From contig JANXER010000009.1 of assembly GCA_025057955.1 (NCBI GenBank), positions 1 to 51,075 on the forward strand: 51,075 nt of DNA, written 5' to 3'. Each line of letters begins with the position of its first letter. Within the stretch, counting starts at the first letter, position 1. A program made the translations under genes and the position numbers. The notes under the pieces were generated by a model, which made no database searches, was not told the origin of the DNA, and was given only the letters and a program-made list of their open reading frames with translations. The DNA is from Candidatus Methanomethylicaceae archaeon. Lineage in GTDB: Archaea > Thermoproteota > Methanomethylicia > Methanomethylicales > Methanomethylicaceae. Shown here piece after piece: positions 11,863-25,080 of the stretch.

Positions 11863-12024
11863 ATGCCAATACAAGATCCTGAGAAACTTAGAATTGCTCA
11901 GCAGCATTTGCTCTATGTTAAGATATGTAGGAAGTGTGGAGCAAGAAATCCAATGTCAGCAGAAAAATGCAGAAGATGTAGAAGTAAAGAACTTCGTCCA
12001 AAAAGAAGAGAATTGAAACGCTAA
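11863..12024 (+). CDS. rpl40e: ribosomal protein L40e (missed by ORF track)
   Basis: MPIQDPEKLRIAQQHLLYVKICRKCGARNPMSAEKCRRCRSKELRPKRRELKR*; GGTGA upstream. Confidence 0.96.
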   Translation: MPIQDPEKLRIAQQHLLYVKICRKCGARNPMSAEKCRRCRSKELRPKRRELKR

Positions 12025-12055: not shown

Positions 12056-12146
12056 GGGCCCGTAGTCTAGTCTGGTTAGGACACCTCTGAGGCCTAAGGT
12101 CGCCCTCACACGGCGGAGGTCCGGGGTTCGAGTCCCCGCGGGCCCA
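12056..12146 (+). tRNA. trnV-CAC: tRNA-Val(CAC) containing a 16-nt noncanonical intron (12083-12098, position 25/26)
   Basis: Acceptor GGGCCCG/CGGGCCC, D-stem GTCT/GGAC, T-arm CGGGG-TTCGAGT-CCCCG, anticodon stem-loop TCGCC-CTCACAC-GGCGG formed only after removing ACCTCTGAGGCCTAAG. Confidence 0.93.
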
Positions 12147-16484: not shown

Positions 16485-19227
16485 TCATATCACCTATTTG
16501 TTTTTTTAAATTTTGAATATTAGCTTCAAATTCTGAAATATGAGAAATTGGTATTTTTCCTTGACCTATATCTGGTCTACCTCCCCCCTTACCACCAATA
16601 CCAGCTACAAGAGAGGCAATAATTCTTCCAGCATTCAATCCCCTCTTAATAGCATCCTCCCCACACATAACCACTACATATCCATCAGTCTTAGAAACGA
16701 AAACAACTAAGGAAAGTTTATCTTTCCTCACTATATAAGATGCAATAGCCAATATATCCTCATTAAGGAGATCCTCAAATTTTTCAAAGAAAAATTTAAT
16801 TCCATTTATAGTTTCAGATTTGAGGTTAGAGTAGATTATAGCAGCTAATTTTCCTCTGAGATCCTCCGTTATTTTCCTATAATCCGAGAGCTCCTTTATG
16901 AGCTTACTTACTGCCACCTCAAGATGCTCCATTGGAGCATTGAGGGCTTTGGAGATCCTCTGTATCATATCTTCTTGGGAATGAATATATTTTATTGCTT
17001 GTTCTCCTGCTACAAATTCCAATCTTTCAACTCCATCTTGAATACGTTCAGAGCGTATTATCTTTACAATCCCTATTTCTCCAGTATTAGAGCAATGTAT
17101 ACCCCCACATGCCTCCACATCCCATCCCTCTATCTCCACAATTCTTATTCTTCTTCCTGGAACTACTCCTCCTTGATAAAGCATCATACCAAATTTTTCC
17201 TCTGCTTTATTTCTATCCTCGAAGTAAGTTCTTATAGGTCTACATTCCTGTATTACTCTATTTGCTAGAACTTCTATTTCCCTAAGCTGAGATGAATTTA
17301 TTTTTTCAAAGTGGGTTATATCCAAACGGCTTCTATCAACATCTTTTTGTGCTCCATGTTGCCATACGTGATTTCCTAAAACTCTTCTAGCAGCTCCTAT
17401 TAAGATATGAGTGGAAGAGTGATGCTTCGAGAGGCTAATCCTTCTGTTCAAATCTATTATACATTCAACTTCACTTCCAACATCTATTGATTGATCATTC
17501 TCAATATAATGAACTACTATCCCTTGAGACTTTTTCACATTATTAACTTTGATTTCCTTACCATTAGCCACAATTATACCTATATCGCTTGGTTGTCCTC
17601 CACCCTCTGGATAAAATATAGTTCTATCTAAAACAATTCTTTTACCATCTGAATAAAGAACCTTTGCTTTAATTCGTCTAGCTCTTGGATCAGTATAGTA
17701 TACGAGCTCAGTCTCAGGAAGATTAGGCATATCTTGTAGTATATCTTCTTCCATTTTAGATGGTTGAGAAGATTGATGTAAAGATGCAATCATAGCATCA
17801 AAAGCCGCAGGAATCTCCACTCTTACACCCTGAGGTTCAGCAATCTCCTTCACAATCTCTGGTGGAACTCCATGAGAGTCGTAAAGTTGTAAAAGAGTCT
17901 CTGTTGGAATATTAGAGCTCTTTCTTATTTTCTCATCTTTTAAAATTTTCATTATCAAACTTTTTCCTTGCTCCATGGTTTTGGTATATCTTTCCATCTC
18001 AAGATCGGCTACCCTTAATATATAGTCCATATTCTCTACAAGTTCCGGAAATTGATTTTTCCAATGATCAATTTGCATGGATAGAAGCTCTGAAATAGGC
18101 ACATATACCTTTAGAATATCCATTAAACGTTTGATACGTCTAATTAAGAATCTAGCAAAATATCCTGCTTGAACATTCGAAGGAACAAGCCCATCACCTA
18201 GCATAAAAATTAAAGCTTTTGTATGATCCATTATAGCCATTATAGATTCCACTGGCCTCAGAAATAATTCTAATGATGGAATATCCATTCCTACAGCCTC
18301 TGAAACTTTTCTCTTGAATAAATTTATGGATGCATCATCACTTACATCGATAATTCCACTCAGTTTAACAACCTCACTCAATATTTTTGAGTCTGGTTCA
18401 TTAAAACCAAATATTTTGAAGAAACCCTTGTATAGACTATCATAAGCTGCTTCAAAGGCTGTTGGAGTTCCCTTAGAAATCCAAGTAAAACGCTCTAGAC
18501 CATATCCTGTATCAACGATCCTAAGTGGAAGTTCTCTATAAGAATTACCAACCTTCCTATATTGCATAAAAACTAGAGTGGAAATCTCCAATCCGCGTAC
18601 TACACCCTCTACATCTGGTCCTGCGTCTCCTCCTCCTTCCCACCAATGCTCAATGTAAGTTATTTCATCCTCGGGTATTCCAAGATCCTTTGTTAGAAAT
18701 TCATGATGATATGCTACAGTTTCTTCCTTCCAATATACCTCTCTATCCTTTGAAGAGAATGCATGATGTCCCATCATTTCAAATATTGTTAAGTGTCTTC
18801 CCCCAGTTCTTCCTACATTTCCTATATCAGTCATCCTTATGGAGGGTTGAGAGATCACAAGTGGATTATAAGGAGGAGGGACTTCACCGCTTGTTACATG
18901 TGGTTGAAAACAAGCTATAGAAGCTATTGTAAAGAAGATATCGTCCCTCCATCTTGCTACTACTGGATAGCGCTTAATTCTTGTATGTCCTCTCTTCTCA
19001 AAGAAAGAGAGAAATGCTTCACGCATCTCCCAAATATGATAACTCCTCTTTGTTGGAGGATTATTTATGAAGGTATATGGGGTACAAGGAGATTCTCCAC
19101 AAACTTCACGATTCGGATTAACTGTCCAAAAGTGTCTCTTACAAACCCTACATTCTTTTCTAGTGAAACCATTCTCCAGAAAAAATCTCAATCTATATGC
19201 TTCAGGTCCTACTATCAAATCTACCAT
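16474..19227 (-). CDS. alaS: alanyl-tRNA synthetase
   Basis: HHSSTHILIGAARRVLG, EACGGIHCSNTGEIG. Confidence 0.97.
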   Translation of the reverse strand: MVDLIVGPEAYRLRFFLENGFTRKECRVCKRHFWTVNPNREVCGESPCTPYTFINNPPTKRSYHIWEMREAFLSFFEKRGHTRIKRYPVVARWRDDIFFTIASIACFQPHVTSGEVPPPYNPLVISQPSIRMTDIGNVGRTGGRHLTIFEMMGHHAFSSKDREVYWKEETVAYHHEFLTKDLGIPEDEITYIEHWWEGGGDAGPDVEGVVRGLEISTLVFMQYRKVGNSYRELPLRIVDTGYGLERFTWISKGTPTAFEAAYDSLYKGFFKIFGFNEPDSKILSEVVKLSGIIDVSDDASINLFKRKVSEAVGMDIPSLELFLRPVESIMAIMDHTKALIFMLGDGLVPSNVQAGYFARFLIRRIKRLMDILKVYVPISELLSMQIDHWKNQFPELVENMDYILRVADLEMERYTKTMEQGKSLIMKILKDEKIRKSSNIPTETLLQLYDSHGVPPEIVKEIAEPQGVRVEIPAAFDAMIASLHQSSQPSKMEEDILQDMPNLPETELVYYTDPRARRIKAKVLYSDGKRIVLDRTIFYPEGGGQPSDIGIIVANGKEIKVNNVKKSQGIVVHYIENDQSIDVGSEVECIIDLNRRISLSKHHSSTHILIGAARRVLGNHVWQHGAQKDVDRSRLDITHFEKINSSQLREIEVLANRVIQECRPIRTYFEDRNKAEEKFGMMLYQGGVVPGRRIRIVEIEGWDVEACGGIHCSNTGEIGIVKIIRSERIQDGVERLEFVAGEQAIKYIHSQEDMIQRISKALNAPMEHLEVAVSKLIKELSDYRKITEDLRGKLAAIIYSNLKSETINGIKFFFEKFEDLLNEDILAIASYIVRKDKLSLVVFVSKTDGYVVVMCGEDAIKRGLNAGRIIASLVAGIGGKGGGRPDIGQGKIPISHISEFEANIQNLKKQIGDMIGL

Positions 19228-19635: not shown

Positions 19636-20520
19636 CTATTTTTCCTGAACTACTTCTGGATACTTCTTTGTAATCTCTTCGAATAATCTCCTTCCTCTTA
19701 ATATAGCGATTGTTACTGAATCCTTCAATATCTCAGGTATTGGAAGAGCAGAAACAATAGCAAGAGTTCTTGCTTCCATATAGGCCTTAGATATTAGAAG
19801 TGGTACTGTCTCTTTAGTTGGATAAGCTATATTAAAGGCAAGATTAATTGCATACTCCGTTGCGCTCTTTATTTCAGATTTATATTTATCCAAATCAATA
19901 GCCAATACTTCTCCAGGAATAACCGTTTCATCAAATGCCATTTTGAGCTTAAGACTAACCATAATTGGTTTTAGACCTAACTTCTTAAGTATATCAGCTA
20001 GATCGGCAGAGATTACATCCCCCTTCTTAGCTACTAAAGTGTCTTTTACAATCCAAATCGATCCCTCTTGAATTTTTGTTGGTATTTTTGCTGCACCAAA
20101 TTTGCTCAATATAGGACCTGGCTGTAGACCAGTATTTCCTGCGGGCACTATTATGTCCTCTGTTGCTATATCTCCTGGAGCTGCTTCTGAGGCAATCTTA
20201 TTTTTCTCCAAGAGGAGATATAGTGAAAACGGATTCATATTAGAGAAAATTAGTATATTTTGGCCAGAAAGATACTTGGAAATTTCTTCTCTATACCCAT
20301 TAAACTTTGGTACTCTTTCCATGGCCTTTTTAATAAGCGTATTTTTCGCCACATACACCTCAATAAGCCCTCTGAAGTTCTTTCTAATGCTCTGAATATG
20401 CTTAGCCTTCATACCATAGAGATTTCCTATAGCGAATGTGTGATATTTTTGAAATAAAAGTACAATTTTTTCAACAATAGATTTCTTAATTTCTAGAGAT
20501 GCTCTAGCCAATTTCCACAC
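19636..20520 (-). CDS. rpl10: ribosomal protein L10 (P0), no acidic C-terminal tail
   Basis: VEVYVAKNTLIKKAMERV-like core, PGPILSKFGAAKIPTKIQEGSIWI. Confidence 0.95.
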   Translation of the reverse strand: MWKLARASLEIKKSIVEKIVLLFQKYHTFAIGNLYGMKAKHIQSIRKNFRGLIEVYVAKNTLIKKAMERVPKFNGYREEISKYLSGQNILIFSNMNPFSLYLLLEKNKIASEAAPGDIATEDIIVPAGNTGLQPGPILSKFGAAKIPTKIQEGSIWIVKDTLVAKKGDVISADLADILKKLGLKPIMVSLKLKMAFDETVIPGEVLAIDLDKYKSEIKSATEYAINLAFNIAYPTKETVPLLISKAYMEARTLAIVSALPIPEILKDSVTIAILRGRRLFEEITKKYPEVVQEK

Positions 20521-23237: not shown

Positions 23238-24170
23238 CTATATTAGTAATGCTAATATAGCCTTCTGTACATGAAGTCTATTTTCCGCTTGATCCCATAC
23301 AGCGGAGTTCTTTCCATCAATTACTTCATCTGTAATCTCCAATCCCCTATGAGCGGGTAGACAATGCATGATAATTACATCTTGAGGAGCCTTACTAATT
23401 AATTGAGAATTAACTTGATATTTAGAAAAAGCGCTAATTCTTTCTTCCTTTTCTTTTTCTTGACCCATGGAAACCCATACATCAGTATAGATTACATCAG
23501 CATTTTTTACACCTTCTATAGGATCCTCGGTTAATATCAAAGAGGCACCTTTAGAGGCGCCTTTTCTAATTTCCTCTATATAGGATTGAGGTGGATAATA
23601 GCTCCTTGGTGAGGCTATAATCATATTACCCCCAAGTTTTAGAATGGCTTCAGAGAGGGATCTACAAACATTATTATTTCCATCTCCAATAAATACTACA
23701 TTGATCCCTTTTATTCCACCTTTTTTTTCAATTATAGTAAGACAATCAGCAATAGCTTGACAAGGATGGGCTAAATCACTTAATGCATTTATTACTGGAG
23801 CTCTTGCGTTATTAGCAATCACCTCTAAATCTAGATGTTTATATACTCGCGCTACTATACCATCTGAGTAGCAATCTATGGCCCTAGCAGTATCTGCTAA
23901 ACTCTCGCCTCTAGTTATTTGAAGATCGCTCCAATTCAGGTAAATCGAATGACCACCTAATTGATAAGTAGCAACTTCAAAGGATAGGCGAGTTCTCGTG
24001 GATGGTTTTTGAAATAGTAAAGTTATAGTTTTTCCATTGAGATATGGAATAATATATTCTCCACATTTTAATCTATGCTTCATGTCAATTGAAAGTTTTA
24101 AAATCATCTCCAATTCTTCCCTTGAGAAATTTGAAAGTGTTAATAAATCCCTACCTTTCATACTTTGCAT
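23238..24170 (-). CDS. argF: ornithine carbamoyltransferase
   Basis: FQKPSTRTRLSFEVATYQLGG, MHCLPAHRGLEITDEVIDG. Confidence 0.96.
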   Translation of the reverse strand: MQSMKGRDLLTLSNFSREELEMILKLSIDMKHRLKCGEYIIPYLNGKTITLLFQKPSTRTRLSFEVATYQLGGHSIYLNWSDLQITRGESLADTARAIDCYSDGIVARVYKHLDLEVIANNARAPVINALSDLAHPCQAIADCLTIIEKKGGIKGINVVFIGDGNNNVCRSLSEAILKLGGNMIIASPRSYYPPQSYIEEIRKGASKGASLILTEDPIEGVKNADVIYTDVWVSMGQEKEKEERISAFSKYQVNSQLISKAPQDVIIMHCLPAHRGLEITDEVIDGKNSAVWDQAENRLHVQKAILALLI

Positions 24171-24189
24171 TTACTACACCTAGTATAAT

Positions 24190-25080
24190 TTAAATCATAG
24201 CAAATATATTTTTGATTATCCATTCAGGATCGAATTTTATTAAATCCTTATAACCTTGTCCTACTCCTAGAAATATTATTGGTTTTCTCAATATATGAGA
24301 AATGGAAATGGCAGCTCCTCCCTTTGCATCTGCATCTATCTTAGTAAGTACTATGGCATCTATTGGAACAAATTTATTAAATTCTTGAGCTTGATTTAAA
24401 GCATCATTTCCAGTAAGCGCATCTCCAACAAATACTGTTAAATCCGGCTTTGCAACCCTATGAATTTTTTGCATTTCATCCATTAATCCACGATCGGTTT
24501 GCATTCTTCCAGCCGTATCAATCAATACAACATCAATCCTATTTGATTTAGCATAGGAGATGGCATCGTATGCTACAGCAGCAGGATCTGCACCATATCT
24601 ATGTTTTATTAATTTTACCCCAAGTCTATTTGCATGTACTTCCAATTGTTCCTCAGCTCCAGCTCTAAAAGTATCACTACAGGCAAATACAACTTTTAGA
24701 CCATTATTCATTAAATATTTTCCAATTTTTGCTATTGTGGTTGTTTTTCCAGTACCGTTAACTCCAATAAACATAATAACAAAAGGCTTTTTTGAGCGTA
24801 TTATTGATAATATATCAGCTGAGGAAAGAAATTGCTTCAATATTTCAGCCAATGTATCTTTAACTAGAGGCTTTATATCACTGAATCTGCTAACTTTTGT
24901 TCCAATCAAACTACTTTTTAAATTGGATATAATAGCTTCTGCTACTGGAAGAGCAACATCACTTTCCAGTAGGGCAATTTGAAGGTTCCAAAGATGATCC
25001 TCAAGATCTTTCTCTGATAAGGATTTCTTAGAGATATCATCTATGAAACTAGAAAAAGCTTTTTTCAGTTTATCGAACAA
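24190..25080 (-). CDS. ftsY: signal recognition particle receptor FtsY
   Basis: GVNGTGKTTTIAKIG, DTAGRMQTDRGLMDEM, LTKIDADAKGGAAIS. Confidence 0.96.
   Translation of the reverse strand: MFDKLKKAFSSFIDDISKKSLSEKDLEDHLWNLQIALLESDVALPVAEAIISNLKSSLIGTKVSRFSDIKPLVKDTLAEILKQFLSSADILSIIRSKKPFVIMFIGVNGTGKTTTIAKIGKYLMNNGLKVVFACSDTFRAGAEEQLEVHANRLGVKLIKHRYGADPAAVAYDAISYAKSNRIDVVLIDTAGRMQTDRGLMDEMQKIHRVAKPDLTVFVGDALTGNDALNQAQEFNKFVPIDAIVLTKIDADAKGGAAISISHILRKPIIFLGVGQGYKDLIKFDPEWIIKNIFAMI

Follow-up and report, generated by a model that had tools for sequence, protein, structure and literature searches.

The window analysed here, a stretch of 51,075 nt, belongs to an archaeal MAG of 1.21 Mb (~94% complete), in which it is contig 49. 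Going by the Lrp-like protein whose gene precedes the tRNA gene described below, the nearest named relatives are MAGs of Candidatus Methanomethylicota (Verstraetearchaeota). Positions 12056-12146 match the Rfam tRNA model (RF00005) with 47 bits and lie directly downstream of the gene for ribosomal protein L40e (11863-12024; PF01020 above cut-off), which provides a syntenic marker. The match is a tRNA-Val(CAC) gene in two exons, both on the + strand like the L40e gene. The 5′ exon (12056-12082), identical or nearly so in the intronless orthologues G003, G013 and G004, includes the 5′ acceptor strand, U8/A9 and the D arm up to position 25. The 3′ exon (12099-12146) carries G26, the anticodon arm TCGCC-CTCACAC-GGCGG, the variable loop, the T arm, the 3′ acceptor strand and the discriminator A, with no encoded CCA. 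They are separated by a 16-nt intron, ACCTCTGAGGCCTAAG, at position 25/26 (12083-12098). ARAGORN, run on the whole window, misread the precursor as 'tRNA-??? anticodon aggc'; after removal of the 16 nt it returned a standard Val(CAC) tRNA of 75 nt. A genome could thus be taken as devoid of tRNA-Val(CAC) through misreading of this gene by automatic annotation. No second Val(CAC) gene was found in the assembly, whose level of completeness leaves an unseen copy possible.

The intron and its flanks can be folded into a bulge-helix-bulge (BHB). The central helix is formed by TAGG (12077-12080), comprising the end of the D loop and the first half of the 3′ D-stem strand, and CCTA within the intron (12093-12096), joined by four Watson-Crick pairs. 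A 3-nt bulge borders it on either side (AC^A and AG^G), and an inner h′ hairpin follows (12084-12092) in which CCT pairs with AGG around a CTG loop. The outer exon helix is absent: the flanks GGT and TCG do not pair and the strict hBHBh′ form is not present. The motif is a relaxed HBh′-type BHB, a form that needs no outer helix, and a base-by-base check confirmed the intron coordinates, the helices and bulges of the BHB and the missing outer helix.

All 16-nt excisions leaving 75 nt were enumerated. Four registers, with the intron starting at 12083, 12084, 12085 or 12086, restore both the D stem (4/4) and the anticodon stem (5/5), and only 12083-12098 also yields the 4-bp central helix, as had been noted earlier for the three alternative junctions. 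A single sequence is only suggestive in this respect and constitutes weak evidence, since shuffling the intron 100,000 times, with the exons kept constant, still produced a compatible BHB in 6.8% of cases. By folding energy the BHB conformer (-34.7 kcal/mol) is less favourable than the MFE structure (-40.7 kcal/mol), but this carries little weight because the model also misses the cloverleaf of the spliced, unmodified tRNA.

To identify orthologues, 40 relatives were searched with the spliced sequence and the matches were oriented and aligned. The L40e gene precedes the tRNA at 21/21 loci and the Lrp-like gene is also found at 20 of them, the contig of G007 ending early. An intron is present in 17 genomes, including this one, which belong to genera g1, g2, g5, g6 and g7; it measures 13–18 nt and is always inserted at the identical point. 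The locus is intronless in genera g3 (G003, G013) and g4 (G004) and in sister family f2 (G022). There the sequence reads GGAC-G followed directly by the anticodon stem (TCGCC), exactly the junction predicted for the spliced product, and the intron appears as an exact gap in the alignment. In 17/17 intron-bearing orthologues CCTA is retained opposite TAGG, with the same register and a 3-nt bulge at each splice site, despite variation in the sequence between the conserved elements (CAGAAG to CCTGAAAAAGG). The inner helix ranges from one to three pairs: it is reduced to a single pair in G005 and in g7, and both sides of its second pair change from C-G to T-A in G001. No covariation was detected in the CCTA-TAGG helix, because the tRNA itself dictates the sequence of the exon strand. 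A constant CCTA and register combined with a changing loop and length fits a functional BHB intron and not a chance insertion. As far as sequence comparison can establish it, the case is made decisive by a locus that carries the intron in some orthologues and lacks it in others.

The orthologues also fix the register at 12083-12098, because the intronless copies carry G26. An intron placed one base downstream (12084-12099, position 26/27) would leave A26 and would likewise restore all stems, and A26 is indeed predicted in some relatives (G005, G007, G011); it lacks the 4-bp central helix, is at odds with the G26 of the intronless copies, and is in our view very improbable. The same holds for the evidence on the two further shifts, which restore the stems without a BHB and are contradicted by the intronless orthologues. 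The 16-nt intron at 25/26 that had been proposed from the window alone is thus upheld by its being the sole BHB register and by the exact gap; the earlier choice of junction was right, although one sequence had left it underdetermined.

Very short introns outside 37/38 generally require a heteromeric splicing endonuclease, and the expectation that the genome would encode both alpha and beta EndA paralogues was borne out. All genomes of the class with a completeness of 90% or more likewise have two EndA genes. EndA alpha matches the crenarchaeal catalytic subunits 3p1z_B and 2cv8_A, keeps the Tyr/His/Lys triad and carries the Crenarchaea-specific loop stretch, with K38 aligned to K44 of A. pernix; the loop lysine and the catalytic triad are invariant in 29/29 alphas of the class. 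This lysine has been credited with the cleavage of relaxed motifs (review, PMC6379350). The preliminary description associated such introns mainly with some crenarchaeal lineages; the lineage here is Methanomethylicota and not a classical crenarchaeote. EndA beta is degenerate and has lost the catalytic His, so that, on the evidence of these residues, the genome possesses separate catalytic (alpha) and structural (beta) paralogues. The alpha resembles that of the (alpha-beta)2 enzymes of A. pernix (3p1z) and S. tokodaii (2cv8), aligning over its length (163 bits). The beta found here (L032:225-758) scores 95 bits against the M. jannaschii subunit and about 27 bits against the A. pernix beta chain, so that by sequence it is nearer to the former; crenarchaeal beta chains reach only about 25–28 bits with it, although the alpha is clearly of crenarchaeal type. 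The RtcB ligase is also encoded in the genome.

The intron in tRNA-Val belongs to a set that is normal for this organism. Noncanonical introns are also apparent in at least five further tRNAs: His(GTG), Lys(CTT), Ser(GGA), Leu(TAA, two introns) and Trp(CCA, two introns). In another eight, Lys(TTT), Ala(GGC), Met, Gly(TCC), Tyr, initiator Met, Ser(CGA) and Leu(CAA), the anticodon loop contains an insertion resembling a canonical intron. The tRNA-His(GTG) gene (G000:C1, about 20430-20516; L173, L185) carries a 14-nt insertion, AGACATACCCCGAA, at 9/10 with BHB geometry (CGGG/CCCG). This insertion is retained, though its loop varies, in G001, G011, G006 and G014 (L186, L187, L189, L190), and in g6 a 37/38 intron appears to be present in tRNA-His(GTG) as well. 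Position 9/10 was not found in the non-exhaustive list of known sites in PMC4090602 and is possibly an unlisted site. In tRNA-Ser(GGA) (L044; G000:C33, about 24138-24240), for which Rfam alone gave a score below cut-off, a 12-nt intron, AAGATTGCTTAA, lies at 29/30 with a GAGC/GCTT helix and a 5-nt loop. The tRNA-Trp(CCA) gene (L172; G000:C11, about 17950-18250) seemingly has an intron of ~29 nt near 28/29 together with a long 37/38 intron; in other archaea a C/D box RNA is often housed in this intron. Automatic calls misplaced the introns of Lys(CTT), 17 nt at 30/31, and of Leu(TAA), 20 nt near 30/31 and 13 nt at 37/38 (L034 and L043). Neither tRNA-Arg(GCG) nor Arg(CCG) was among the matches from the whole genome (G000); they may sit in missing sequence or be hidden by introns.

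Two other readings would dispense with splicing. The gene could be a pseudogene with a chance insertion, and its Rfam score is indeed lower than that of most tRNAs in the same genome. It is nevertheless the sole Val(CAC) gene found, every stem is intact, and the conserved synteny and the retention of an invariant pairing element in the intron across five genera are grounds for rejecting this reading, whose likelihood is negligible. It is just as hard to credit that the 16 nt form an enlarged D-anticodon junction, unspliced and tolerated in the mature tRNA, given the precise absence of the insertion from sister genera, the BHB geometry, the matching set of splicing enzymes and the many other BHB introns in the genome. 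We are highly confident that the one tRNA-Val(CAC) gene detected in the assembly contains a functional BHB intron of the archaeal kind that has been inherited vertically.

We infer that the gene is transcribed and that its precursor is processed as follows. The intron CCUA would pair with UAGG of the D arm, forming the 4-bp helix with a 3-nt bulge on each side, for which part of the D stem has to open. A heteromeric EndA of catalytic alpha and structural beta, presumably assembled as (alpha-beta)2, would then act on this precursor, cutting after C25 and before G26. Ligation by RtcB would join C25 to G26, giving a normal 75-nt tRNA, and the 16 nt, ACCUCUGAGGCCUAAG, would be released in circular or linear form.

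The history of the intron was considered on an AlaS tree of 30 genomes. This places g1 and g7 on one side and g6, (g5,g4) and (g3,g2) on the other, so that the intron-bearing g1/g7, g6, g5 and g2 surround the intronless g4 and g3. For the family plus outgroup the fewest changes are three, as in a scenario with one gain and two losses, and the pattern favours a single gain that would have preceded the radiation of the family, followed by two exact losses. A 16-nt intron, AGACTTAGCTCCTAAG, with the same TAGG/CCTA helix is also found at 25/26 of Val(CAC) in G023, from a distant family of the class, and its relative G039 has Val(CAC) without an intron. The G023 intron could represent a parallel gain or very old descent with losses. 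A pattern search over 400 genomes of the phylum gave no other clear case of a Val(CAC) 25/26 intron outside the home family; the search assumes one D-arm sequence and is thus no proof of absence elsewhere, and its other matches were read as chance pattern matches. Tentatively, position 25/26 of tRNA-Val might be a recurrent insertion point, with the G023 intron apparently separate from that of the home family.

The preliminary description had regarded 25/26 as an uncommon site. It is not exceptional: it is among the known intron positions, as in Pyrobaculum islandicum tRNA-Pro(UGG), and Caldivirga maquilingensis tRNA-Glu(UUC) is split there (PMC4090602). The lengths of archaeal tRNA introns span 11–129 nt (median 15; PMC3218864), and a count over 217 genomes gave 673 noncanonical introns (PMC8450103). 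The Val intron resembles the Thermoproteales 25/26 introns exemplified by P. islandicum (PMC4090602) in insertion point, short length, relaxed BHB and, if spliced as proposed, dependence on EndA; it differs in isoacceptor and lineage, and in being a single intron conserved across a Methanomethylicota family. It shares the tRNA-body junction with the C. maquilingensis split, but here there is one contiguous gene and splicing would occur in cis. The position, the length and the relaxed BHB are all documented in other archaea and none is new; the present case contributes the lineage and, for a single locus, a presence/absence series. We know of no earlier Val(CAC) isoacceptor with a 25/26 intron, and no paper on tRNA introns of Methanomethylicota was found in the literature searched. 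The locus provides a clean, well-supported example of a noncanonical tRNA intron in a little-studied lineage, with shared synteny, one probable gain and two probable exact losses, and extends to Methanomethylicota the link of loop-bearing heteromeric EndA to noncanonical introns. Should insertion at 25/26 prove recurrent and the two exact losses in the home family hold, the locus could serve as a record of how tRNA introns are gained and lost.
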